A DNA stretch of 64,000 nt. Origin: Desulforamulus putei DSM 12395 (GTDB lineage Bacteria; Bacillota; Desulfotomaculia; Desulfotomaculales; Desulfotomaculaceae). Positions 3,288 through 62,829 of the stretch are shown here, in pieces. A program made the position numbers and the translations under genes. The notes beneath the pieces are model-generated. The model was not told the DNA's origin. It worked only from the letters and a program-made list of their open reading frames with translations, and made no database searches. The DNA is taken from positions 62,001-126,000 of the forward strand of contig NZ_FQUY01000001.1 of the NCBI RefSeq assembly GCF_900129195.1, given 5' to 3'. Position 1 is the first letter of the stretch, and each line of letters begins with the position of its first letter.

Positions 3288-4115
3288 ATGTCTTATCACT
3301 ATAAACAAGACCTTATGAAAAGGCTGGATGACGGATCGCTGCCGGGTATATCGCTGGATCACCGGTTTGCCTTTGCATGCAAGGCAGCCTGTATGGGTCG
3401 ATGCTGCAACAGCATTACCATACTTTTAGACCCCTGGGATATCGAAATAATGGCCCGGCACCTGGGAATGCCGGGACAGCAGTTTTTGGCGCAGTACTGC
3501 AAAGTTGACCTTAGCCATGAATTGAAGTGGCCCTATGTAATACTGAAACATGCCGAGGACGGTCCCTGTATTTTTATGCTGGAGGACGGGCGGTGTGAGA
3601 TTTATCCTGTGCGTTCCCGCAACTGCAGAACGTATCCCATTGGCCGGGCGGTACGTTTTGAACCGGACGGCACAAAAGTGGAGCGGATTTTCATCGTAGA
3701 AAAGATGGATTTCTGCCTGGGTCATAAAAGTGAAAAAACCTGGACCGTAGAAGAATGGTTCAATGATGCGGATTGTCAAAAATTCTATGAGCTGTCGGAT
3801 TTGTATTTGGAATTAATCAACTACGCCACCACCCGGTTAAACAGTCAGGTTTGGATGAACAAAAACATATCTCAAATCATGATGCCCTTGTTGTACGGGC
3901 CTGACCTGTTAAGAAGAAAATTGGGGATCTCAGAACAAGAGGTGGATCACGAGGAATTTTACCGCAGAAGAATAAAGGCATTAAAGGTAATTTTAACGGA
4001 AGTGGCGGCCGGCTTCGGCTATGGTCCCCTGGCCCACCGGGCCGGAGAAGGCAACGTCTTTGGTGGCAGTATGATGGAAAGGATGAAGCAGGTACTGCTC
4101 ACAGGACAAGAATAA
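3288..4115 (+). CDS. YkgJ-family cysteine cluster protein
   Basis: 275 residues, ATG start behind GAAGGGAG. The N-terminal half has the family's Cys pattern: CKAACMGRCC near residues 30-38, a later CIFMLEDGRC, then CRTYP after a YPVRSRN motif. This matches the YkgJ (Fe/Zn-chelating, CxxCxxxxCC) domain, which is thought to bind a metal or Fe-S centre; the exact role is unknown. The C-terminal 120 residues are helical and not recognised. It is monocistronic and ends in a shared terminator. The family call is firm, the function is not. Confidence 0.85.
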   Translation: MSYHYKQDLMKRLDDGSLPGISLDHRFAFACKAACMGRCCNSITILLDPWDIEIMARHLGMPGQQFLAQYCKVDLSHELKWPYVILKHAEDGPCIFMLEDGRCEIYPVRSRNCRTYPIGRAVRFEPDGTKVERIFIVEKMDFCLGHKSEKTWTVEEWFNDADCQKFYELSDLYLELINYATTRLNSQVWMNKNISQIMMPLLYGPDLLRRKLGISEQEVDHEEFYRRRIKALKVILTEVAAGFGYGPLAHRAGEGNVFGGSMMERMKQVLLTGQE

Positions 4116-47182: not shown

Positions 47183-47213
47183 AGAATATATTCATCTTTA
47201 GGGGGGAGTGGAG

Positions 47214-48059
47214 ATGAACACCTTAAAAGTATGGCTCTTAATGGGCACCCTTTCAATTTTGCTTGTTTTGATGGGCAATGCCATTGGCGGTAAAAGCGGC
47301 GCCATTATGTTCTTTCTGATCGCCATGGCCATGAACTTCTTTGGTTACTTTTACAGTGACACACTGGCCATAAAAATGACCGGTTCTTACCCGGTGTCCG
47401 AAGCGGAAGCCCCGCAGCTTTATGCCATGGTTAGGAAGCTGTCCCAGCGGGCCGGCTTGCCCATGCCGAAGATATATATACAACCGTCCCATCAACCCAA
47501 CGCCTTTGCCACCGGGCGCAATCCGTCCCATTCGGCGGTGGCGGTCACCGAAGGTCTTTTACAGCTCTTAAGCCCCTCGGAACTGGAAGGTGTTTTGGCC
47601 CACGAACTGGCGCATATCAAGAACCGGGACGTGCTGGTGGGAACCATCGCAGCCGCTCTGGCCGGGGCCATCAGCATGATAGCCAATGTCCTGCAGTGGG
47701 GTGCTATCTTCGGGATGGGAAGAAATAATGATGAGGAAGAAGGGGGCGGCATGGTCGGAGGGCTGATTATGGCCATGGTGGCTCCCATTATCGCCATGAT
47801 CATTCAAATGGCCATCTCCCGCTCGAGAGAATACATGGCCGATGCCACCGGCGCACAGATTGCCGGCTCAACGGAAGGATTATCCAATGCCCTGTTAAAA
47901 TTAGAATCAGCGGCACACCGGATACCGATGGCCGTTAATCCGGCAACTTCCCACCTCTTTATCATCAATCCTCTTGCCGGGGCGTCTATAGCCAGGCTTT
48001 TCAGCACGCACCCGCCCATTCAGGAAAGGGTAGAAAAGCTCCGGAGATTAAGGGTATAG
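47214..48059 (+). CDS. htpX: HtpX-family membrane zinc metalloprotease
   Basis: 281 residues from ATG 47214, six bases after GGGGGAG. Two N-terminal membrane helices (about 7-25, 30-48) precede the active site [10 protein letters not shown], with the third zinc ligand Glu in [11 protein letters not shown] and two more hydrophobic segments between. Peptidase M48 that degrades misfolded membrane proteins. 31 bases after spo0M. Confidence 0.95.
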
Positions 48060-48070
48060 AATAAGAATGA

Positions 48071-48104
48071 TAATCCCCTGGCTGGATACCCGGCCAGGGG
48101 ATTA
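48071..48104 (+). terminator. terminator of spo0M-htpX unit
   Basis: Perfect 12-bp stem TAATCCCCTGGC/GCCAGGGGATTA, 10-base loop; only short T-runs after it. Confidence 0.7.
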
Positions 48105-48275: not shown

Positions 48276-49574
48276 TTACCGGGGCGGAGGCTGCTTTCCT
48301 TTGTAGTACCGAATGGTTTGCAGTCCCAGGATGCACCCCACCAACCAAAAGCCTCCGGCGGCAAAACCCGCCAGCACATCGCTGGGGTAATGGACCCCCA
48401 GGTAAATCCGGCTTATACCGATGGCCACTACCAGTAAGGCAAAGGCAAGGGTTGAAACCGTTCTAAGGCAGCCGGACGTTAAATTAATCCAAATGAGGTA
48501 GGCCAGCATACCATACAAAGCAAAGGATACCATCGCGTGACCGCTGGGAAAACTGTACCCGGTTACCTCCACTAAACGAGCCGCGTCAGGACGAGTGCGT
48601 TGAAAAAGCCCTTTTAACAATTCGTTCATGAGCCAGCTACCTGCTAGAGCCGTCCCCACCATCGTGGCGTCCCAGATATGTTTTTTCACCAACAACAGCA
48701 CAACCGCCACGAGTGCAAAGCCGATCATCACCGGCGGGGAACCTATGTTGGTAATGACCTTCATCACCGTAGTCATGACGGGGCCCTGGAGGGTATGCAC
48801 AATCCCAATGACGATCTGATCAAAAAGTTTTAATTCATTGTCCAGCAAATCCTCTGCCAGCTTGGCAAAGAGCAGCATAAAGCCAACACCCAGCGCCAAA
48901 CCTACGACTAAAAAGTTCCCAAAGGCCCCCAGGGGCGAGATTTTCTTTTTATAAAATTCTTCCACTTTCTTCCTCAAGGAAAGCCACAGCGTTTGAAAAT
49001 AGTTTACCGTTTTAGTATGCCGAAAAACCAGGTACAAAAGGAGAATGAGGACAGTGACGGAGATGGTGATGATTTCCAAATAGGAGCTAAGCAGGGTATT
49101 GGCCGCAGACCCCAGGAAATAGATAAGAAAACCCTCCAAAAAGAAGCGGGCACCCCGGCTAAGGAGGGAAGCCAGGAGGAACACCCCTTTGTTAATACGG
49201 AACAGCCCGGCACCAATGGTAAACACCTTGTAGGGAATGGGAGTAAAACCGGCGATGGCCACTGCCCAGCCGCCGTAGCGGTGGAACAGTTTCTCCATTT
49301 TCCGTATCCTTTCGTGGGCCACCCAGCGGTCCAAGAGGGGTCGGCCAGCCTTGGTGCCAATGAAATAGCCAAAGACTCCTCCCAGGACCGAGCCAACGGT
49401 GGTCACCAGGGCATACCACGGAGCCAGTCTTGGCTCCTGTAGGGACATGGCGATCAGCAAGACATCCGGCGGCACCGGAAAAAAGGAGGATTCTGCAAAG
49501 GCCAACAAAAATAACCCGAAGGGTCCGTAAACCAGGAAGGTCTCCGCCGCGTAATGCAGCCACTGGCTAAGCAT
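48276..49574 (-). CDS. DedA transporter fused to PAP2 phosphatase
   Basis: 432 residues from ATG 49574, behind GGAAGGGGGATC; the open frame upstream has no site and lies in the previous gene. The N-terminal half (1-200) is DedA: AESSFFPVPPDVLLI, GGVFGYFIGTKAG and GFTPIPYKVFTIGAG. The C-terminal half (240-432) is PAP2: KGLFQRTRP, SFPSGHAM and SRIYLGVHYPSDV, all three catalytic motifs intact. DedA proteins recycle undecaprenyl phosphate and PAP2 enzymes dephosphorylate its diphosphate, so the fusion could couple both. Last gene of the ECF operon. Confidence 0.9.
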   Translation of the reverse strand: MLSQWLHYAAETFLVYGPFGLFLLAFAESSFFPVPPDVLLIAMSLQEPRLAPWYALVTTVGSVLGGVFGYFIGTKAGRPLLDRWVAHERIRKMEKLFHRYGGWAVAIAGFTPIPYKVFTIGAGLFRINKGVFLLASLLSRGARFFLEGFLIYFLGSAANTLLSSYLEIITISVTVLILLLYLVFRHTKTVNYFQTLWLSLRKKVEEFYKKKISPLGAFGNFLVVGLALGVGFMLLFAKLAEDLLDNELKLFDQIVIGIVHTLQGPVMTTVMKVITNIGSPPVMIGFALVAVVLLLVKKHIWDATMVGTALAGSWLMNELLKGLFQRTRPDAARLVEVTGYSFPSGHAMVSFALYGMLAYLIWINLTSGCLRTVSTLAFALLVVAIGISRIYLGVHYPSDVLAGFAAGGFWLVGCILGLQTIRYYKGKQPPPR

Positions 49575-50394
49575 GATGATCCCCCTTCCCAGGCAGCAGA
49601 CTGGCGGCCACCGCGCCCAGGGCAAAGACCAGGACCAGGATGCCCCAGAGGACACCCAGGACCGGGAAATTAAAAAGGGCCACCAAGAACAAAGACCCGA
49701 TGAGAACTTGGTAAAGGGGCTTCTGGCCCCAGGCAAAATTTTTTAACAGCAGCTCTCCGGTGAGAAGGCTTAAAGCCGAGAGCCCCACCGGCAGCAGGGC
49801 CAAAAGCAAAAGCCCCAGCAAAAGAGCCAACGGGATGCCCCAGACGGTTACCACCAGGGCCAGGAAAACCAGCCCCAGACCAAGAGCACCAAAGAAGCCC
49901 AGGAGGCCCACTTTGACGGTGCCGCTCTGTAGAGCGCCTTTGGCCCGGTTCATTCGGTTTTTTAGGACAAAGAGAGAAATCAGACTGGCCAGGAAAACAT
50001 ACAGGGCCAGGGCCAGCTTCGCCAGTTCCAGCAGCACAAAGGCCCCGGCCCCCAGCAGCAGACTGTTGAGATTTTCATTGGCCAGGTTAATGTGAAAGAT
50101 GCCCTTGCCGACAGCGGCCCCCGGCTCCTGGTTCAACTGCCCTCCGATAAGAAAAATCCGATCCTGGATGCGGGCGGTTTTGGTCAGGGTCAGGTTGCCG
50201 TTAATGACAACCACTTCATCCTCCACCACCCCGGCGATAATACCGTCTTCCCCATAAAGAAAAACATTTTCCACCCGCTGCCCTTCCTGCACAACTCGGT
50301 TCAGGTGATAAAAGGGCTCATCGGCCCGGGCAGGGGCAGCGTGGGTTCCCGATAAAAATAATAGCGTTACTAAAACCATCAAGACTTGCTTCAT
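49567..50394 (-). CDS. membrane protein with exported bactofilin-like domain
   Basis: 275 residues, ATG overlapping the anti-sigma stop by four bases, behind AGGAGGAGTTG. A signal peptide ends near ADEPF. Residues 30-100 show a short repetitive beta pattern (EDEVVVINGNLTLTKTARIQDRIFLIGGQL) like polymer-forming bactofilin-type domains, and four or five membrane helices follow. It is placed between the anti-sigma factor and DedA-PAP2, so it is probably a regulon member acting in the envelope. No firm family. Confidence 0.7.
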   Translation of the reverse strand: MKQVLMVLVTLLFLSGTHAAPARADEPFYHLNRVVQEGQRVENVFLYGEDGIIAGVVEDEVVVINGNLTLTKTARIQDRIFLIGGQLNQEPGAAVGKGIFHINLANENLNSLLLGAGAFVLLELAKLALALYVFLASLISLFVLKNRMNRAKGALQSGTVKVGLLGFFGALGLGLVFLALVVTVWGIPLALLLGLLLLALLPVGLSALSLLTGELLLKNFAWGQKPLYQVLIGSLFLVALFNFPVLGVLWGILVLVFALGAVAASLLPGKGDHHA

Positions 50395-50906
50395 GAAATC
50401 AACTCCTCCTGGGACAAAGTGGCATAAATACGTCCAAAACCATAAAACGCAACCAACGCTCCTGCCAGCAGCGCCAAACCCGTCACGCCGTTAACGGCCC
50501 CCGGAGGCACCTGGCGGCTGATTTTTACCACCAGGGAGGCAAGGAGGAAGAAATCCTTTACCACCACCGAGAAAAAACCCAGTATGACAGGGCCAAAGAG
50601 AACAAACAACGCTCCAAAGGCCAGAAGGCTCAAGAGCCCCCAGGAGCGGAGCAGCCGGGTTAAGGGCAGGTCGCTGACGGTTTGACTTGCCTGCAGGCGG
50701 TCCATAATTTGCGCCGTAAGCCAAGGGTTCACCGACGGGCGGGGGAGTGCCTGAACAGCCCCGGACAGAGCTTGTAGTTGGTTTAGGGACTCCCGGCAGC
50801 GGGCACAGGAGCGGAGATGTTGTTCAAAGGCCAGGGCTTCCTCCGGGGGCAGTTCCCCGTCCAGGTAGGCCGATACATTTTCTTCGCAGCACATGACATC
50901 GACCAT
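50391..50906 (-). CDS. anti-sigma factor with zinc-binding ZAS domain
   Basis: 171 residues, ATG behind GAAGGAGG. The N-terminal anti-sigma domain has CCEENVSAYLDGELPPEEA and HLRSCARCRESL, the H-x3-C-x2-C zinc site. Two membrane segments follow (about 90-125 and 140-165). One base after the sigma gene, so it should hold that sigma factor at the membrane until an envelope signal. Confidence 0.88.
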   Translation of the reverse strand: MVDVMCCEENVSAYLDGELPPEEALAFEQHLRSCARCRESLNQLQALSGAVQALPRPSVNPWLTAQIMDRLQASQTVSDLPLTRLLRSWGLLSLLAFGALFVLFGPVILGFFSVVVKDFFLLASLVVKISRQVPPGAVNGVTGLALLAGALVAFYGFGRIYATLSQEELIS

Positions 50907-50907
50907 T

Positions 50908-51450
50908 TTAGCAGCCTCCTTCGATTAATTTCTTCGACAACAGTTTGCGGGCACAGTAAATCCGGGACTTTACCGTTCCCAGTGGGATGTCCAATACCTC
51001 GCTAATTTCCTGGTAGGAATAATCCTCCCATTCCCGGAGGATCAGGGCCGCCCGGTACTCGTCCGGGAGAGTTTTCAGGGTTTGGGCCACGTGTACCTGC
51101 TTCTCCTTTTTTAAGAGGAAGTATTCCGGACCCTCGGTTATGCTGCACCCTGCCGCAGGCAAGTCTTCCAAAGGGATGGTTTTAAACCGCCCCTTTTCTT
51201 TGGCACGCCGCAAGGCCAGGTGGGTGACAATTTTGCCAAACCAGCTTCGAAAGGTTTCCGGTGCCTTCAGTTGCCCGATATGATGATAAACCTGTAAGTA
51301 AGCCTCCTGCAGAATCTCCTCAGCATCCTGCGGGTCCTGCAAAATACCGTAGGCAATATTCAACCCCCGCTGCCGGGTGCTCTCTACCAGCTTTTCAAAG
51401 GCTTTTATATCGCCCCGTTGTAGCTGCTCGATAAGTGAAACTTCGACCAA
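50908..51450 (-). CDS. ECF RNA polymerase sigma factor
   Basis: 180 residues from a TTG start behind GGGAGG. Region 2 (AYGILQDPQDAEEILQEAYLQ) and region 4 (LPDEYRAALILREWEDYSYQEISEVLDIPLGTVKSRIYCARK) are complete. It directs polymerase to GAAC-N16-GTCT type promoters, one of which precedes its own operon. Order of the operon: PAP2, sigma, anti-sigma, bactofilin-like membrane protein, DedA-PAP2. Confidence 0.92.
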   Translation of the reverse strand: MVEVSLIEQLQRGDIKAFEKLVESTRQRGLNIAYGILQDPQDAEEILQEAYLQVYHHIGQLKAPETFRSWFGKIVTHLALRRAKEKGRFKTIPLEDLPAAGCSITEGPEYFLLKKEKQVHVAQTLKTLPDEYRAALILREWEDYSYQEISEVLDIPLGTVKSRIYCARKLLSKKLIEGGC

Positions 51451-51464
51451 CGGGTAAACCTCCC

Positions 51465-52049
51465 TTAGACCCCGGCAGACCTACGGGTGAAACCTTCCAC
51501 TAGGGCAATCACTTTATCGGCTGTGCCGTCCATATAGGGCCAAAGTTTGTTGGCCAGATGACTTCCTAAAAGACCGGTGGCAACTCCTCCCACAACGTCA
51601 AGGGGGTAATGGGTCCCGCAATAGACCCTGGAAAAGATTATAATTAGGGATAGGGGTGTCAATAGTATGCCCCAACCTTTATGGACCCTCATGATGCTGG
51701 CGTTCACCGAAGATGCCCCGGTGGCATGGTCACTGGGAAAAGAGGGATCCGGGGACCGATCCAGCAGCAGAGTCACCTCATGGGTGGCAAAGGGTCTGGG
51801 CCGAAAGTAAAGCAGGCCAATGAGTTGGTTCAGCCCCAGGGCGATGGCGGCGCTAAAGCATACTTTCAGCACCCCTTTGCGGCGGAGGCCCCTTTGCTCG
51901 GGCCGGGTCCTCTGGAACCACAGGGCTGCCAGGGCCAGACCATAGAGGAGAAATCCCCACCTGGTAAATGCCAGCATGAAAACGTCCAGTAGGTGGACAT
52001 GACCCGCCAGGCTGTTGATTTGGACAAAGAGATGGTAATCGAAACTCAT
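51465..52049 (-). CDS. PAP2-family undecaprenyl-diphosphatase-like enzyme
   Basis: 194 residues, ATG behind AGGAGGTTGATC. Five or six membrane helices. Catalytic motifs: FRPRP, SFPSDHATG (the PSDH form seen in BcrC) and SRVYCGTHYPLDV. Expected to remove phosphate from undecaprenyl diphosphate on the outer face of the membrane. First gene of the ECF operon, as bcrC is an ECF target in Bacillus. Confidence 0.85.
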   Translation of the reverse strand: MSFDYHLFVQINSLAGHVHLLDVFMLAFTRWGFLLYGLALAALWFQRTRPEQRGLRRKGVLKVCFSAAIALGLNQLIGLLYFRPRPFATHEVTLLLDRSPDPSFPSDHATGASSVNASIMRVHKGWGILLTPLSLIIIFSRVYCGTHYPLDVVGGVATGLLGSHLANKLWPYMDGTADKVIALVEGFTRRSAGV

Positions 52050-52085
52050 TTGATCAACCTCCTTTCATTTATTCCACTTATAAAG

Positions 52086-52109
52086 AGACAAATCAAGCTC
52101 CAAAAGTTC
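52086..52109 (-). promoter_or_regulatory. ECF-type promoter, probable autoregulation
   Basis: Minus strand GAAC (52106-52109), 16-base spacer, GTCT (52086-52089), about 37 bases before the first gene of the operon. Confidence 0.55.
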
Positions 52110-52263: not shown

Positions 52264-52550
52264 GTGTTTGAGTCATTCTATGGATTGTGTGCCATACGCC
52301 GTTCTCCCGGGATATTCCCACAGACCAATTATATCCCTCGGTCATGCTGGAGGAAACACTGGGAAGACTGGAATATGCTGCACAGTGTCAGTTATTTGCC
52401 GTTGTAACCGGCGACTGCGGAACAGGGAAAACGACGACCATTCGCCGATTTGCGGAGAAACTGGATCCTGCGAAGTTTAAGGTGCTGTACCTGTCGGGTT
52501 CCAAGCTGACGCCACGGCACTTTTAGGGCCTGTTGAAGCAACCGGGGTGC
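52264..52550 (+). pseudogene. broken ExeA/TniB-like transposition ATPase
   Basis: The start GTG-TTTGAGTCATTC reads MFESFYGL, then needs a frameshift near 52288 to continue as HTPFSRDIPTDQLYPSVMLE with the P-loop VVTGDCGTGKTT. A TAG at 52524 interrupts LTPRHF*GLL. The frame then joins other sequence after GCEA. This is the N-terminus of the AAA ATPase carried by many transposons as a transposase partner. No transposase or terminal repeat is nearby, so it is a relic. Confidence 0.75.
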
Positions 52551-54642: not shown

Positions 54643-55713
54643 ATGGTTGCCCGTTTAGTACATCAGGATGATGGAATAAGAGAAGAATTCCTGAAGCGAA
54701 TAAAGGCGAAGGTACAGGCTGAAAGAGAAGCAATGAAAGGAAGGCTTGAGGAGGCAGTTCCTTCTCTCCTGGCAACTGTTTTAAAGCCGGTTTTCGGTGT
54801 AGCCTTTGATATTTCCAGGGGGATAGATAAATTCAAAGGCAATAGTGGAGAGGTTAACGTATCTGTTAAATTAAGGCTGGGCCTGTCCGACGAATGGGTA
54901 CTGATGAATGATGTTATTGTGGGACCGGAACCCGAGGTCTTTGCCCAGACTGATCATGTTTTGATTGGACCGCCGGGGCTTTTCATTATTGAGACCAAAG
55001 CCTGGCAGGGCGCCTTTTCTGGCTATAAAGATTACTGGAAGCGAAAAGAAGGCAATCAGTGGGTGAAGTGTGAAAGCCCAACCAAGCAAAACCAGCGGCA
55101 TGTACGCCTTATCAGAAAATGGCTGGAAGGGACCGGATTGTTGAAAATTAATGAACTGCCGGAAGGATGGATTCAACCGGCGGTAGTTTTTACTAACGCA
55201 TCATGGCTCAAGGTAACTGAATGTTCCATGCCGGTTTTTGACGGGCCGCTTCAGTTGCTGGGTTATCTCCGGCAACAGAAAACAAGAATTCTAACCCCGG
55301 AGCAAATTGATAAAATAGCTGGGCTGCTGGCATACCCCGCCGTGGCCAAAGCCTTTACCAACAAGGAAATACAATTGTTATATGATGAACAGGCAGTGAC
55401 CGAACTGCAAAAAGGTCAGCAGTCAATAGCAAATCTCTCAGCGGAGCAGCCAGTGGTTGAGGAAGGAAAGAATAAAGATGGTCGCAAATTTGTGAGGATT
55501 ACCGGCACAGTGGAGCAGGCCAAAGAAATTAGGCAAAAGTATCTCCAGGAGGGTCAAAACCCCGGAAAGTTAAGCAAAGATAGATACAAACAGGGGATTT
55601 TTTATTTTATATTGAGGCGTAGAAAGCAAGTAGGGATACAATGTTTCAGTCCTATAGTCGCTGAAAACCCAAGTTGCAATTCGCATTTTCACAGCAAATT
55701 ATTAAAGTACTGA
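54643..55713 (+). CDS. NERD-domain nuclease-related protein, altered C-terminus
   Basis: 356 residues, ATG behind TTAGGAGG. The NERD domain (about 65-200) shows GEVNVSVKL, then QTDHVLIGPPGLFIIETKAWQG: Asp and Glu-x-Lys as in PD-(D/E)xK nucleases. A helical part follows and KDGRKFVRITGTVEQAKEIRQ looks native. The last 30 residues, ending SHFHSKLLKY, look random, so the C-terminus was probably replaced by rearrangement. NERD proteins are common in defence islands. Confidence 0.75.
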   Translation: MVARLVHQDDGIREEFLKRIKAKVQAEREAMKGRLEEAVPSLLATVLKPVFGVAFDISRGIDKFKGNSGEVNVSVKLRLGLSDEWVLMNDVIVGPEPEVFAQTDHVLIGPPGLFIIETKAWQGAFSGYKDYWKRKEGNQWVKCESPTKQNQRHVRLIRKWLEGTGLLKINELPEGWIQPAVVFTNASWLKVTECSMPVFDGPLQLLGYLRQQKTRILTPEQIDKIAGLLAYPAVAKAFTNKEIQLLYDEQAVTELQKGQQSIANLSAEQPVVEEGKNKDGRKFVRITGTVEQAKEIRQKYLQEGQNPGKLSKDRYKQGIFYFILRRRKQVGIQCFSPIVAENPSCNSHFHSKLLKY

Positions 55714-56371: not shown

Positions 56372-56586
56372 AATAAAAATCATTTCAAACCAACTTTCAC
56401 GTCAGTGGGTTGTTTTTTTTGTTACCGACAAACTGAATTAAATCAAAAACCTGCAAAGAAATGATGCTTAAAACATTTTAACGCTCATACAGGTATCACA
56501 AACAACATGCAGAATAATAAAAACATCAACAAGTGTCAATTGTCCAGTCAAATCAATTGGCAATAATTGGTAACAGGAGTGGTCAA

Positions 56587-59500
56587 ATGGAAACGGTTTT
56601 TCAAACTTGCCAACCCCGCCAGGAGGTACTGGAAGGGCGGGTGGAGGCAGACATTTTTGCTGCCAAACTATCCGACGTGATGCATAACAAAGCTCCGGAT
56701 GTTTACGGAAACCCGGAAAAATTCTTTGCCCAAACCTTTCCCACCGGTGGCCTTACCACGTTAATAGAAGAAGTATTTGGCCGCCTCAGCGGAGTTCGTT
56801 CCAGCAATAACCCTATCATTCGGCTGGAAACATCTTTTGGTGGTGGTAAAACCCATAGCCTGATTGCTTTGTACCATTTGGCCAGGCAAGGGCGGAACAT
56901 ACAAGGCATAGAACAACTGGCTGATCCGGGGGTTATACCCAACAACGCAACCGATGTAGCCGCTGTGGTGGGCAGCGACCTGGATCCCCAGAATGGTATA
57001 GAGCATGCTGACGGCATCGTTACCTACACCATGTGGGGGGAGATTGCCTACCAACTGGCAGGACCCACCGGTTATAAAATTATGGAAGAAAACGATCGCT
57101 CAGGTATCGCTCCCGGTACCCAGCGGTTAGATAAATTAATCGGCAACCGGCCCACCTTAATTATGATTGATGAAATTGCCCGCTATTACCGGGCCGCCAA
57201 TGGAAAAATGGTGGGTCAGGATACCCTGGCGGGGCAGACTGTGGCCTTTATGCACACCCTTCTGGAGTTTGCTGCCAGCAAGGAAAGGGTAGTGGTGGTT
57301 TATACACTGGCGGAAACCAGTGATGCCTATGCCTCCGAAACCGAGGATTTGAAGACTGCTTTACGGGAAACCTCCCGGGTTTCCGCCCGCTTGGAAAAGG
57401 TACTGCGGCCCACTGCGGAGACCGAGATTGCCGCTATTGTTAAACGTCGCCTCTTTACCCGGGTGGATGAAAGTGCCGGTGCAGCAGTGGCGCAGGAGTT
57501 TTTTGACTATTATCGTAAGGCCCATGAACAAGGAGTGGCACTGCCACAAAAGGCTATGCGGGTAGAATATAAAGACGAGTTATGCCGCAGTTACCCCTTC
57601 CACCCTGAACTGCTGGATACCCTGAACCGAAAGACAGCTACTATCCAAAATTTTCAAAAAACCAGGGGTGCCCTGCGTCTCCTGGCCAGCGTAATTCTAA
57701 ACCTCTGGCAACAAAAGGAAGCGGATACATATCTGATCCACCCCCATCATGTGGAACTGGCAGTGCCCATCATTCGGGACGATCTGACCAGCCGTTTGGG
57801 GCGGGATGCCTTTACTTCCGTCATTGAAGCAGATATATTTAGTGAAAAGCAAGATACCCACGTCCAGGAAATCGACCAGGACTGGCTGTCCAAAGACAAG
57901 CCTCCCTTGGGTAAACGGGTGGCCCAAACGGTTTTTCTGCATAGCATCACCCAGGGCGTTGCCTCCGGTGTAGAACCGGCTTTATTAAATTTGGCGGTTG
58001 GGCAGCCGGGGCTGGATTACCAATTTATCAGCAAAGCCCTAACAGACCTGGAAAAAACCTGCTGGTATATGGAGTTTGACGGGGCCCGCTACCGGTTTAA
58101 AACCGAACCGTCCATCAACAAAATAGTCGCCGACGAAACCGACAACTACACCAAGGCAGTGGCTAAACAGGAACTGGCTGCCCGCATTAAAAACTATTAC
58201 GCTGAAAAGCATTTCAAACCGGTTTTCTTTCCTGAAGGGCCGGAAAGTGTGGACGATGATACCGGCAAGCCTAAACTGGTGATTATACATTTTGACAGTG
58301 AAACGGTCAATGCCAGCCAGAGCCAGGCTTATGATGATCCGCCGGTGCTGGTGGACCGCATTTACCAGAAGGCCGGTGCACAGCAGGCCTTCCGCATAAA
58401 CCAAAATAACTTGATTTTTCTGGTGGCCAACGCCAACGAAGTAGCCCCGATGATCGAACAAGCCCGCAAGTACAAAGCCCTGGCGGCCTTAACCGATAAA
58501 GAAAGGCTCAAGGACTTTACCAAAGAGCAGCGAGAGGAATTGAAAAACCGGGCGGCGGCCGCCGAGCTGGACCTGAAAGTCCGTGTGGCTTCGGCCTACC
58601 GGCACCTGTTCTATCCCAGCGGAGAGGCCGGTGCGGTGGCCGGCCTGGCCCAGCATGTGCTGCCACCCCAGGATGTGGGTCAAATCAATAATACCAACCA
58701 GCAGGACTTGCTGCTGCAGGTATTATCGGAACTGGGCAAGACCCTGACCTCCCAGGACAAACCCCTGGCGGCAGCCTACGCCCAGAGCAAGATTTGGACC
58801 GGCACCAAAGAAGAAATGACCACCGAGGAATTCCGGCAGGCTTTCTGCCAGAAGCGGGTATTGCCCATCCTGTTTGATCCGGAACAGGTGAAAGAAACTA
58901 TTAAAGAGGGCGTGCAAAAGGGCCTGTGGGTTTATTATAACGGCCAGAAGGCCTTTACCCGGGATAATGCCGCTGGCTTAATGGTACAATTAACCCCCGG
59001 CCATAAGCTCTATACCAGAGAAAAGGCGTTACGAGACGGCATCCTGGAAAGGCCAAAACCAGCCCAACCGGCGACCGGAGGCGGCGGTACGACGGGCCCC
59101 AAACCTCCCAAACAGGTGTGTCCTCTCTGCGGCCAAAACCCCTGTGTTTGTCTTAATTCCGGTGGGGGTGAGGGGTACTTCCATGAGAAAAAGCCTCTGG
59201 TGGCTGCCGGGGTTCCCAACAAAGCCTTTGCAGATTTAAGGGACCTCTGCGAAAAGGAAAAGGTTGAGGCATTGGCCAGCCTCACCATTAAATTAAAGGA
59301 TATCAAGTCCGTCCAGGCGGTAGCCTTGATGCTGCCCCAATACCAGAAGCAAAATCCGGTTATCGAGCAGGACTTTACAGTGGAACTACCCGATGGCAGC
59401 CTGGAGTTGAAATTTAGCGGTGGCTGGCAAAATTACCGGGAAGTAAAGAACTTTACCGAGCGGCTGGCCAAATCAGCCAGGGAAACTTATGTGGAAACCA

Positions 59501-59628
59501 GGCTGACCTTTGAGTATCCCGAACCGGTTTCTCCGCATGGGGAAGAGCTGGCCAAGATGAATGAATCGCTCAATACCTTTAAAGTGGAAAAAATAGAAAT
59601 TGAGGCTAAAGAGACAAAGGATGAATAG
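56587..59628 (+). CDS. DUF499-family AAA ATPase, predicted defence protein
   Basis: 1013 residues from ATG 56587, eight bases after CAGGAG; the ATG at 56533 has no site. Walker A SFGGGKTHSL (about residue 83) and Walker B LIMIDEIARYY (about 195) mark the DUF499 ATPase. A middle region of winged-helix and helical parts follows. Near residue 845 a Pro/Gly linker leads to CPLCGQNPCVC, a zinc knuckle, and then a C-terminal beta/alpha domain. Known as a regular neighbour of DUF1156 methyltransferases and helicases in defence islands. First gene of the four-gene operon; the role (DNA translocation or sensing) is inferred. Confidence 0.85.
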   Translation: METVFQTCQPRQEVLEGRVEADIFAAKLSDVMHNKAPDVYGNPEKFFAQTFPTGGLTTLIEEVFGRLSGVRSSNNPIIRLETSFGGGKTHSLIALYHLARQGRNIQGIEQLADPGVIPNNATDVAAVVGSDLDPQNGIEHADGIVTYTMWGEIAYQLAGPTGYKIMEENDRSGIAPGTQRLDKLIGNRPTLIMIDEIARYYRAANGKMVGQDTLAGQTVAFMHTLLEFAASKERVVVVYTLAETSDAYASETEDLKTALRETSRVSARLEKVLRPTAETEIAAIVKRRLFTRVDESAGAAVAQEFFDYYRKAHEQGVALPQKAMRVEYKDELCRSYPFHPELLDTLNRKTATIQNFQKTRGALRLLASVILNLWQQKEADTYLIHPHHVELAVPIIRDDLTSRLGRDAFTSVIEADIFSEKQDTHVQEIDQDWLSKDKPPLGKRVAQTVFLHSITQGVASGVEPALLNLAVGQPGLDYQFISKALTDLEKTCWYMEFDGARYRFKTEPSINKIVADETDNYTKAVAKQELAARIKNYYAEKHFKPVFFPEGPESVDDDTGKPKLVIIHFDSETVNASQSQAYDDPPVLVDRIYQKAGAQQAFRINQNNLIFLVANANEVAPMIEQARKYKALAALTDKERLKDFTKEQREELKNRAAAAELDLKVRVASAYRHLFYPSGEAGAVAGLAQHVLPPQDVGQINNTNQQDLLLQVLSELGKTLTSQDKPLAAAYAQSKIWTGTKEEMTTEEFRQAFCQKRVLPILFDPEQVKETIKEGVQKGLWVYYNGQKAFTRDNAAGLMVQLTPGHKLYTREKALRDGILERPKPAQPATGGGGTTGPKPPKQVCPLCGQNPCVCLNSGGGEGYFHEKKPLVAAGVPNKAFADLRDLCEKEKVEALASLTIKLKDIKSVQAVALMLPQYQKQNPVIEQDFTVELPDGSLELKFSGGWQNYREVKNFTERLAKSARETYVETRLTFEYPEPVSPHGEELAKMNESLNTFKVEKIEIEAKETKDE

Positions 59629-59631
59629 TCA

Positions 59632-60066
59632 ATGCAGGTTTTCACACTACAGGTGGAGCAGTTACCGGATAACGACTACCAGGTGACCTTATACCAGGTA
59701 CCCTATCACCTCAAGGGCCAAATGCCCCAGCTGCCGATGAAAATTGAGACTCTCGCCGGCTGGCGGCTGCAGGCTGTGCGGCCGGTGCTGCTGGAGGAAC
59801 TAAGGAAAAACGGCTACGACCCGTCTACTTTGAAGGCCGGACGCCGGGCCCCTTACAATATAAAAGAAATCAGCGGCATAAAAATCGGATTAATTTTCCT
59901 GGCGGTGAAACCGCTGCAAAAAATCCAGCGGGTGGAGGAAATATACCTGGGCATCAGCCGCATGAGTGATGAGGAGGCCTATTACTGGTTTGCCAAGTGC
60001 CGCAACGGTGAACGACAGCGGGCCTTACGAGCCCTCAGGATTTTACTTTCCGAGGAGGAGAATTAA
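59632..60066 (+). CDS. small conserved defence-operon protein (DUF7680-like)
   Basis: 144 residues, ATG three bases after the DUF499 stop and directly abutting the DUF1156 start. Beta-rich N-terminus (FTLQVEQLPDNDYQVTLYQV) then helices with EEAYYWFAKCRNGERQRALRALRILL. Small proteins of this size and place accompany DUF499/DUF1156 pairs; the domain name is my best guess. It may bridge the ATPase and methyltransferase. Confidence 0.7.
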   Translation: MQVFTLQVEQLPDNDYQVTLYQVPYHLKGQMPQLPMKIETLAGWRLQAVRPVLLEELRKNGYDPSTLKAGRRAPYNIKEISGIKIGLIFLAVKPLQKIQRVEEIYLGISRMSDEEAYYWFAKCRNGERQRALRALRILLSEEEN

Positions 60067-62829
60067 GTGACCAAGGAGAAGCGACCGGCGGTTTTAATAG
60101 AGAAGTGGTTTCCGGTGCAGGAGTTGGGCATTGAGTGTCAAAGGGAGAATAGTAGCGGAAATCACCCACCGCCAAATAGATTACATGTTTGGTGGGCCAG
60201 GAGACCCCTGGTTGTCAGTAGTGCAGCCATTCTAGGCAGTATCTTAGGTTGTAATACAAACCCCGACTGGTTTAAAAAATTCATTGGCATTTTAGGGGAT
60301 CCCATCGCAGCTCAAAAAAAAATTGAGGAAGCTAAACAAACCAATACCAGAGTATCTAACCCTTTCGGATATGATAGAGCGTTTAAGTACGTCCCAACCG
60401 ATGAACAACTGGAAGAATTTAAAGCTAAACTTATAGAAATGTGGGGTGAAATACCTGTCGTTCTCGATCCTATGGCCGGTGGGGGAAGTATTCCTTTAGA
60501 AGCAGTAAAATACGGTTTACCAACCTACGCCAATGACCTTAACCCGGTAGCCTTTGTAATAGAAAAGGCTACCTTTGAATACCCGGCTAAGTATAAGGAT
60601 TCCCTAGCTGATGACATTGTCAGGTGGTCTAATGAGATTTATCAACGGGCTAAAAAGGAGTTAGAACCTTATTTTCCTAGTCAGGAAGGGGAACAGGTAT
60701 TTTGTTATATTTGGGCCAGAACAGTGGTATGTCCGGAATGCGGTTTGCAAGTGCCACTTAGCCCTAATTGGTGGTTGCAAAAGAAAGACAATAGTAAAAT
60801 TGCTGTAAAAATACATTACACAACGCAGTCCAATCAATGCACCTTTGAATTAGTGGAAAACGTAAAGATGAATGAATATGATCCGGATGAAGGAACTGTG
60901 GCCAGAGGTGTCGGTAAATGCCCGAGGTGTATGGGTACTATTCATGGTGATTACATAAAAGAGATGGCTCAGACTGGAAGAATGGGCCAACAGTTATATG
61001 CACTTGGTGTGCAGAGATTAGTAGGGAGGAGAACTAAAAAGTCATTTCGTATACCTAACGAAGCAGACTTGGCTGCTGTAAATAATGCATCCAAGATAGT
61101 TGAGAACAAGTTACCTGATTGGCAAATAAATAATTTATTTGCAGATGAGTTAATCCCGGATGGGGAGAAAACTAAAGAGCCACGAAGATATGGTTATGAT
61201 GCTTGGAACAAACTCTTTAGCCCCAGACAAAAATTATCTAACCTAACACTACTTAAACACTTTAATGATATAAAACAAGAAATATTGGATAAAGAAGAGC
61301 CGGAAAGGGCAAAAGCAATCATAACTTACCTGGCATTTATTTTAGACAAGTGTTTTGATTATAACTCTTACCTGGTTAGGTGGGACGGTACAAGAAATAA
61401 GATCGCTAATACCTTTGATAGACATGATTTTAGTTTTAAGTGGTCCTTTGGGGAGATGAACCTGATTAGCCCCGGGCTTGGTTTCCAATGGGCAACGGAA
61501 ACTGTATTAGATGCTTACAAAGGATTGGCTGAAATAATCCACCCAACTGAGACTCCGTTATTTAAGCAAGCTAAAAGATTAAATACAGAACAAATACACA
61601 TAACCCAGGGCTCCGCAGCCAACCTGCACCACATCCCAGACAACACCATTCACGCCATTGTCGTGGACCCGCCCTATTATGACAACGTCATGTATGCCGA
61701 ACTAAGCGACTTTTTCTACGTCTGGATGAAACGCACCCTGGGAGATATTTATCCCGAGGCCTTCTCTGACGAGTTAACCAACAAAGACGACGAAGCAGTG
61801 GCCAACCCGGCCCGTTTCCGGGGCTTCGATGTCTCACCGGCGGAACTGGCCAGGCAGGATTATCAGCAAAAGATGCAACTCTGCTTCCAGGAAATGTACC
61901 GGGTACTGCGCCCAGATGGTGTACTTACCATCATGTTCACCCACAAAAAGGTGGATGCCTGGGACACCCTGGCCACCGCCCTCATCAGCGCCGGTTTTGA
62001 AATCACGGCTTCCTGGCCGGTGCATACCGAAAGCGAGCACAGCCTGCACCAGGCCCGGAAAAATGCCGCTGCCAGCACCATCCTGCTGGTTTGCCGCAAG
62101 CGGGAAACCGACGGTTCCGGCGGCTGGTGGGAGGATATCCTGCCGGAAGTACGCCGGACCGCACTGCAAAAGGTGCAGGAATTTATGGCAGCGGATATCA
62201 CCGGTGTGGACCTTTACCTGGCCACCTTCGGTCCGGTGCTGGGAGTTCTTTCCCGCCACTGGCCGGTACAGGACCGCAGCGGCGAAGCCATCAGCCCGGA
62301 CAAAGCCCTGGACGAAGCCCGCCGGGTGGTCACCGATTACCGTGTGCAGAGCCTGCTGCAGGGGCGGCGGGGCCGGTTTGACCCGGTGACCCGCTGGTAC
62401 ATCCTGGCCTGGGATATCTACCAAGCACCCCAGTTCCCCTTTGACGAGGGGCACAAGCTGGCACTGAGTGTGGGAGTGGATATCGATGCCCTGCGCACCC
62501 AGAAACAAATTTATAAAAAGGACGGCAACTTTATTGTTCTTACCAGCCCCAGGGAACGCTCCCGCCGAGGACAGGTAGACGTCAATGCCCAGTCCTTTAC
62601 CAGTTATATTGACGCCATCCACACCGCTCTTTTGATTTATGAAGAGGACGGGGCGGCAGCCGTTCGCCGCTTTGTCCAGCAGGCCAATCTGTTACAGAGC
62701 GATGATTTTCTCTCAGCTTATGCGGCCTTGGTGCGGGCCATTCCGGCAGGGCAGCCCGAGCACCTGCAGTTGAAGGATATGGCCCTTGCTGCAATGGATG
62801 AGAAGCTGGATCAATTGTCTTTATGGTAG
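60067..62829 (+). CDS. DUF1156 amino-DNA methyltransferase
   Basis: 920 residues from GTG behind GAGGAGGAG. N-terminal DUF1156 (VLIEKWFPVQELGIE, PPPNRLHVWWARRP). SAM-binding motif DPMAGGGSIPLEA at about residue 134. Two Cys pairs (CPECG at about 222 and CPRCMG at about 288) suggest a zinc finger. Catalytic motif DPPYYDN at about 534 marks an N6-adenine or N4-cytosine methyltransferase. It probably marks host DNA as self. Bases from about 60135 to 61610 are much more AT-rich than the rest of the gene, pointing to a recombined middle section. Confidence 0.88.
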   Translation: MTKEKRPAVLIEKWFPVQELGIECQRENSSGNHPPPNRLHVWWARRPLVVSSAAILGSILGCNTNPDWFKKFIGILGDPIAAQKKIEEAKQTNTRVSNPFGYDRAFKYVPTDEQLEEFKAKLIEMWGEIPVVLDPMAGGGSIPLEAVKYGLPTYANDLNPVAFVIEKATFEYPAKYKDSLADDIVRWSNEIYQRAKKELEPYFPSQEGEQVFCYIWARTVVCPECGLQVPLSPNWWLQKKDNSKIAVKIHYTTQSNQCTFELVENVKMNEYDPDEGTVARGVGKCPRCMGTIHGDYIKEMAQTGRMGQQLYALGVQRLVGRRTKKSFRIPNEADLAAVNNASKIVENKLPDWQINNLFADELIPDGEKTKEPRRYGYDAWNKLFSPRQKLSNLTLLKHFNDIKQEILDKEEPERAKAIITYLAFILDKCFDYNSYLVRWDGTRNKIANTFDRHDFSFKWSFGEMNLISPGLGFQWATETVLDAYKGLAEIIHPTETPLFKQAKRLNTEQIHITQGSAANLHHIPDNTIHAIVVDPPYYDNVMYAELSDFFYVWMKRTLGDIYPEAFSDELTNKDDEAVANPARFRGFDVSPAELARQDYQQKMQLCFQEMYRVLRPDGVLTIMFTHKKVDAWDTLATALISAGFEITASWPVHTESEHSLHQARKNAAASTILLVCRKRETDGSGGWWEDILPEVRRTALQKVQEFMAADITGVDLYLATFGPVLGVLSRHWPVQDRSGEAISPDKALDEARRVVTDYRVQSLLQGRRGRFDPVTRWYILAWDIYQAPQFPFDEGHKLALSVGVDIDALRTQKQIYKKDGNFIVLTSPRERSRRGQVDVNAQSFTSYIDAIHTALLIYEEDGAAAVRRFVQQANLLQSDDFLSAYAALVRAIPAGQPEHLQLKDMALAAMDEKLDQLSLW

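Follow-up and report, generated by a model that had tools for sequence, protein, structure and literature searches.

We describe an operon on the minus strand (48276-52109) of a 64,000-nucleotide stretch of the Desulforamulus putei DSM 12395 genome (contig NZ_FQUY01000001.1, positions 62,001 to 126,000), hereafter the window. It consists of an extracytoplasmic function (ECF)-type promoter followed by genes for a PAP2 phosphatase (PAP2a), a sigma factor, an anti-sigma factor, a protein with a β-helix and membrane segments, and a fusion of a VTT domain (DedA superfamily) to a second PAP2 domain (PAP2b). On balance, we favour the interpretation of an ECF sigma operon that regulates itself and serves envelope-lipid homeostasis; judging from its gene families, its probable task is to restore the lipid carrier of the cell wall under stress. 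The operon is conserved in several families of anaerobic Bacillota.

Conservation of the operon and its promoter

The β-helix/membrane protein, which belongs to no Pfam or NCBIfam family, was used as the search anchor. Homologues were present in 12/113 genomes of the class and in 37 of the 398 genomes sampled from the phylum, and their genes lay mostly right 3' of those for an ECF sigma and a zf-HC2-type anti-sigma factor; sigma, anti-sigma and membrane protein thus form a conserved triad. A scan of genome contigs with the membrane-protein alignment recovered ten named loci, and one with the fusion alone yielded zero matches.

To assess linkage, we compared 45 triad loci from relatives with 40 further ECF loci, taken as controls from the same genome set. 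PAP2 and/or VTT genes were found within 3 kb of 31/45 triad loci and of 0/40 control loci (Fisher p 1.4e-12). All 29 PAP2/VTT-linked sigmas in the tree, which come from several families, fell into one ECF clade (node support 99/96), which also contains one control and two triad sigmas that lack such linkage. Besides the most heavily sampled class, linkage was also observed in Peptococcaceae BRH_c4b, Pelotomaculum, Desulfotomaculum copahuensis, Desulfotruncus arcticus and Sporomusa sp. KB1. These results indicate that the coupling of sigma factor, phosphatase and transporter, proposed in a preliminary description of this DNA, is conserved.

Triads L074-L077, near the linked sigma clade, possess the promoter motif and lack PAP2 and VTT genes; they are flanked by Amidase_3 upstream and by LPG_synthase_TM plus a GT4 glycosyltransferase downstream, another lipid-transport pairing. 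More distant triads of the broader family adjoin Amidase_3, LPG_synthase_TM plus GT4, DUF4097 or LiaF-like genes, all with envelope functions.

A GAAC-N16-GTCT promoter had also been proposed for the operon and is indeed present; however, the bare pattern GAAC-N15-17-GTCT is near chance in the window (4 matches in 64 kb, about 3 expected), so that the weight of the promoter must rest on its conservation. We therefore examined 58 upstream regions, comprising those of related operons and of their separate PAP2 or VTT genes, with the window's own region counted. The motif GAACTTT-N11-14-[CT]GTC occurred in 28 of them, as compared with 0.03 expected from first-order shuffles, and a looser form in 35, with 1.4 expected. 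In several loci (e.g. L078, L081, L110, L112), the sigma operon and a divergent BcrC-like PAP2 gene each have their own motif copy, which is what sigma control of that phosphatase predicts. A search for a wider regulon with GAACTTTTN10-13TGTC across the window genome found none: of four matches, the operon copy was the only intergenic one in front of a gene, and the other three lay inside genes. The regulon of this sigma may be little larger than the operon itself.

Phosphatases, transporter domain and third triad protein

PAP2a contains the motifs FRPRPF, PSDH and SRxxxxxHxxxD, in agreement with the RPF, PSDH and SR-x5-H-x3-D pattern, and its best NCBIfam model was PRK11837, undecaprenyl-diphosphate phosphatase (85.9 bits, below the cut-off of 229). 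It is probably a BcrC/YbjG-like undecaprenyl-diphosphatase. The motifs are intact in nearly all full-length copies examined; in the alignment, L119 lacks the PF after motif 1. The fused PAP2b half likewise keeps all three motifs (K-x6-RP, PSGH and SR-x5-H-x3-D), which are also intact in the copies of G005 (a genome of the window's genus), BRH_c4b, Pelotomaculum, Desulfotomaculum copahuensis and Peptococcaceae M1_7_4_bin.22. Its closest solved relative, by both sequence and fold, is Bacillus subtilis YodM/PgpB (5jki, 28% identity), an entry titled phosphatidylglycerolphosphate phosphatase, and it scores below the NCBIfam PgpB equivalog cut-off. The reading that both PAP2 enzymes are of the BcrC type was consequently rejected: the separate PAP2a is BcrC-like, the fused half YodM/PgpB-like. 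YodM is nevertheless reported to have undecaprenyl diphosphate phosphatase activity if expressed, and bcrC is under the control of several ECF sigmas (PMC5723303). The linker of the fusion (residues 183-218) contains 8 K/R and 2 D/E; by the positive-inside rule, this richness in basic residues would place the N-terminus of the PAP2 half inside and its active site outside, as dephosphorylation of undecaprenyl diphosphate needs. Another PAP2 fusion was observed at L055 (7499-8758), a 419-aa open reading frame (ORF) that joins a PAP2 domain to a thiamine monophosphate synthase domain (TMP-TENI).

Bacterial DedA proteins comprise three subfamilies, COG0586, COG0398 and COG1238 (PMC10127716). COG0586 proteins are undecaprenyl phosphate flippases, in which tip 1 is acidic and tip 2 carries a pair of arginines, whereas COG1238 proteins, which are 99% single-domain, have an acidic tip and almost no positive residues at tip 2; they were judged unlikely to flip undecaprenyl phosphate, and lipids with no charge or a positive charge were suggested as their cargo (PMC10127716). 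The VTT half of the window fusion keeps the acidic residues E and D at its first re-entrant tip (AESSFFPVPPD), but both flippase arginines are absent from the second tip, GFTPIPYKVFTI, where one lysine adjoins the position of the second arginine. In trees, its nearest neighbours were VTT proteins from the same genus and order that consist of this domain alone; the COG0586 and COG0398 references stood apart (support for the split 91/99 and 84/64), and the window half did not group with Escherichia coli DedA, YqjA, YghB or YabI. E. coli YqaA was placed on the same side as the window half, weakly and with a very long branch. We thus regard this half, from its residues and tree position, as YqaA/COG1238-like. 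Elsewhere, the window genome encodes BacA/UppP and a COG0586-type DedA with both arginines; DUF368, the other undecaprenyl phosphate flippase family, is absent from it. Some other genomes of the genus contain the VTT half alone, with ECF genes absent.

The arrangement of the two halves varies among relatives. A split of the fusion with loss of linkage would have spoken against the preliminary description, and the relatives do not bear this out. Peptococcaceae M1_7_4_bin.22 contains the same fusion, with 70% identity, in the same operon; in BRH_c4b, PAP2b is a gene of its own and accompanies two DedA genes of the COG0586 type, so that the halves are split there but still share one operon. In Pelotomaculum, PAP2b follows the membrane protein, the VTT gene is absent and PAP2a is shortened to 98 aa (L182 1981-2277); in M1_7_4_bin.22, PAP2a is a decayed remnant between promoter and sigma (L183 about 3297-3511). 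Both keep the promoter, sigma, anti-sigma and membrane protein despite this loss or shortening. In most of these operons PAP2a, PAP2b or both are intact; the operon of Desulfotruncus arcticus contains only the VTT gene. In G005, the fusion occurs without ECF genes, after an OmpR-type response regulator and a histidine kinase (L031 3625-7001, with an 8-nt overlap), a position indicating that it is paired there with another stress regulator. Three contigs of this genome hold identical fusion copies, possibly repeats produced by the assembly.

In the Sporomusa-like class (L078, L081, L110-L127), a fusion of another kind occupies the same operon position, next to the same sigma clade. Its DedA half falls among the COG0586 proteins, although one of the arginines and one of the acidic residues differ. 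Its PAP2 half lacks the RP, PSGH and SR catalytic motifs in 15/15 aligned copies while keeping conserved residues of its own (FQAPSxGF and SPxYLRxHxPS), making it a candidate non-catalytic lipid-binding domain; the fusion genes concerned follow the triads of L078, L081, L110-L121 and L125-L127. A single origin of the two kinds of fusion was rejected (approximately unbiased test, p 6e-86); DedA and PAP2 domains thus became joined on two or more occasions at this place in the operon.

The model of the third triad protein (mean predicted local distance difference test score, pLDDT, 79) has a signal peptide, a short β-helix at about residues 33-102 and 4-5 membrane helices. Searching solved folds with this model gave weak matches only, none of them significant. 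The earlier label of bactofilin-like is thus apt for the predicted β-helix alone: bactofilins (PF04519) are soluble, polymer-forming β-helix proteins, whereas the window protein has a signal peptide and membrane helices, lacks a PF04519 hit or any other Pfam match, and was not accepted as a member, although a distant member of its family, L085, does reach PF04519.

Proposed mechanism and alternative readings

We propose that, at rest, the zf-HC2 anti-sigma factor, probably with the β-helix/membrane protein, keeps the sigma factor at the membrane. Lipid-carrier or envelope stress, perhaps a shortage of free undecaprenyl phosphate like that proposed for B. subtilis SigM, would release the sigma factor, which would then transcribe the operon from its own GAAC-N16-GTCT promoter; conservation of the motif is observed, and the dependence is our deduction. 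Outward-facing PAP2 activity, from the BcrC-like undecaprenyl-diphosphatase and the second, YodM/PgpB-type phosphatase, would rise, as would VTT-mediated movement of lipid between leaflets. The window fusion would ensure that the second phosphatase and the VTT domain are made 1:1 and side by side. The least certain step is inward transport of the phosphatase product by the VTT half, because the flippase arginines are absent, and the lipid moved might be another. Since housekeeping BacA/UppP and a COG0586-type DedA are encoded elsewhere in the genome, the operon is probably an inducible reserve. The mechanism as a whole draws on the conserved coupling, the recurring promoter and the precedent of SigM, which controls bcrC and uptA and whose anti-sigma complex was proposed to sense undecaprenyl phosphate (PMC11081497); of the preliminary description, flipping of undecaprenyl phosphate by the fusion is the part that found no support.

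Several observations weigh against this interpretation. No PAP2 or VTT genes lie near 14/45 triad loci, and one class, over-sampled in the survey, contributes 18 of the 29 linked sigmas. The GAACTTT motif is also upstream of 6/40 control ECF genes, indicating a general ECF promoter type with no signature peculiar to the clade. The substrates of the operon products are assigned by family resemblance, as no NCBIfam equivalog cut-off is reached, the structure model of the fusion is of low confidence (pLDDT 67), and its VTT half departs from known flippases at tip 2, as described above. Finally, the role of the third triad protein is only guessed: by analogy, it could be a co-anti-sigma factor or co-regulator, or a sensor, because its third-gene position resembles that of YhdK in sigM-yhdL-yhdK (PMC11081497).

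The preliminary description went further, suggesting that the fusion acts on undecaprenyl diphosphate at the outer face, removing a phosphate, and itself returns the undecaprenyl phosphate so formed to the inner face. The fused order and predicted topology would permit both steps in one polypeptide, the acidic tip-1 residues and the PAP2 half are intact, COG0586-PAP2 fusions have been described as possibly serving the carrier pathway (PMC10127716), and the lysine beside the second arginine position, like the chance of unusual substrates, leaves some room for this reading. Nevertheless, we consider this stronger form improbable, given that both phosphate-binding arginines are absent, that the VTT half stands apart from the COG0586 references in a group, COG1238, judged unlikely to contain such flippases (PMC10127716), that the DedA-PAP2 fusion PA4011 failed to replace the flippase PA4029 (PMC12893004), and that the fused PAP2 half resembles PgpB/YodM. 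Another alternative is a role in phospholipid homeostasis, in which the fusion would dephosphorylate phosphatidylglycerol phosphate or phosphatidate, its VTT half would scramble or flip phospholipid and the sigma factor would answer membrane-lipid stress. The title of 5jki, the absence of the undecaprenyl phosphate-binding arginines, the uncharged or positively charged lipids proposed for COG1238 (PMC10127716) and the LPG_synthase_TM and glycosyltransferase genes adjoining another part of the sigma clade all point in that direction. However, the BcrC-like PAP2a has the same promoter, other lineages have a COG0586-like VTT partner and YodM also acts on undecaprenyl diphosphate (PMC5723303), and we regard this alternative as unlikely too.

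That the genes are chance neighbours, with no functional coupling and a promoter that is a random match, seems to us highly improbable: although about three bare promoter patterns are expected in 64 kb, chance would not account for the 31/45 versus 0/40 linkage, the single ECF clade, the 28/58 promoters against 0.03 expected or the overlapping genes. Compared with these alternatives, we retain envelope-lipid homeostasis as the preferred interpretation. A more elaborate version of it, possible but speculative, is that an unnamed module of ECF sigma, anti-sigma and β-helix/membrane protein monitors the lipid carrier of the envelope and bears its own recycling enzymes, with transporter and PAP2 domains fused at least twice independently. 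One lineage would have kept the PAP2 half as a catalytically dead domain able to bind or hand over lipid, and the window lineage would have recruited a YqaA-type VTT domain without the arginines, which would suggest either that a novel lipid is transported or that the carrier is handled in a new way.

The closest known system is B. subtilis SigM-YhdL-YhdK, in which an ECF sigma, an anti-sigma and a second membrane protein control a BcrC-type PAP2 phosphatase and a DedA protein (PMC11081497). Unlike it, the window operon holds its targets within the sigma operon itself, its third protein has a β-helix outer part and its transporter is YqaA-like and fused to a second PAP2; moreover, its sigma is below the SigM and SigW equivalog cut-offs. 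Pseudomonas aeruginosa PA4011 and the COG0586 fusions share the order of N-terminal VTT and C-terminal PAP2 (PMC10127716, PMC12893004), whereas the window VTT half is YqaA/COG1238-like, without arginines, and its gene is in an ECF operon. The Sporomusa-like-class fusions agree in operon position and sigma clade, but have a COG0586-type DedA half and a motif-less PAP2 half. B. subtilis YodM/PgpB (5jki) is single-domain and hardly transcribed (PMC5723303), whereas the window PAP2 half is part of a fusion. SigM is therefore a known case of an ECF sigma that controls both a BcrC-type phosphatase and a DedA protein, and DedA–PAP2 fusions are known as well. Keyword searches of the literature found no paper joining ECF sigma, PAP2 and DedA; as far as that literature was searched, the self-contained operon, its unnamed third component, the joining of a YqaA-like domain to PAP2 and the recurrence of fusions at one place in the operon, one form of them with a dead PAP2, are new. 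Understanding of how the undecaprenyl carrier is sensed and replenished is just beginning, and an operon bundling sensor, sigma, phosphatases and a DedA-type protein offers a small, portable system for the joint study of sensing, dephosphorylation and translocation. Furthermore, the YqaA-like domain has no known substrate; its fusion to a phosphatase and its place under envelope-stress control hint at the function of this subfamily of DedA proteins, and the conserved dead-PAP2 fusions are a clue to a non-enzymatic role of PAP2 folds.

Gene content and neighbourhood

The gene content and coordinates given in the preliminary description were correct, except for points of naming, and agree with the Pfam domains (Table 1). 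Adjacent genes are separated by gaps of 14 or 1 nt or overlap by 4 and 8 nt, spacing that makes the five look like one transcription unit. The sigma factor is of the ECF type (sigma-70 group IV), with PF04542 and PF08281 above cut-off and TIGR02937 at 81.8 bits (cut-off 42.9). It was rejected as an orthologue of SigW (114 versus 209 bits required by the NCBIfam equivalog) and of SigM (94 versus 190). The product of the adjoining gene is a zf-HC2-type anti-sigma factor with membrane segments, scoring above the 22.2-bit cut-off of PF13490 and containing HLRSCARC (H-x3-C-x2-C).

Table 1. Features of the operon and its 3' flank (window coordinates).
Feature	Position	Strand	Remarks
ECF-type promoter GAACTTTTGGAGCTTGATTTGTCT	52086-52109	-	GAAC-N16-GTCT, 60 nt upstream of first ATG
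PAP2a, BcrC/YbjG-like phosphatase (probable)	51465-52049	-	194 aa; Pfam PAP2
ECF sigma factor	50908-51450	-	180 aa, TTG start; Pfam Sigma70_r2/r4_2
zf-HC2 anti-sigma factor with membrane segments	50391-50906	-	PF13490, 46 bits
Third triad gene, β-helix/membrane protein, unnamed family	49567-50394	-	275 aa; no Pfam/NCBIfam family
VTT (DedA superfamily, YqaA/COG1238-like)–PAP2 (YodM/PgpB-like) fusion	48276-49574	-	432 aa; VTT_dom and PAP2 in one ORF (Pfam)
Strong stem-loop between convergent htpX gene and operon	48071-48104	.	15 pairs

The stem-loop is likely a two-way terminator for htpX and the sigma operon. The HtpX protease gene (47208-48059) adjoins the VTT gene in convergent orientation; an htpX gene likewise adjoins a VTT gene at L058 (7522-8967), on the same strand. 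Just upstream of the operon, 52287-52523 encodes a 79-aa AAA ATPase fragment, by appearance a transposon remnant. Farther away, the window contains a gene for a NERD-domain protein (54643-55713) and, at 56533-62829, genes for a DUF499 ATPase and a DUF1156 methyltransferase with matches to PADLOC HmaC and HmaB (Hma-type defence genes).

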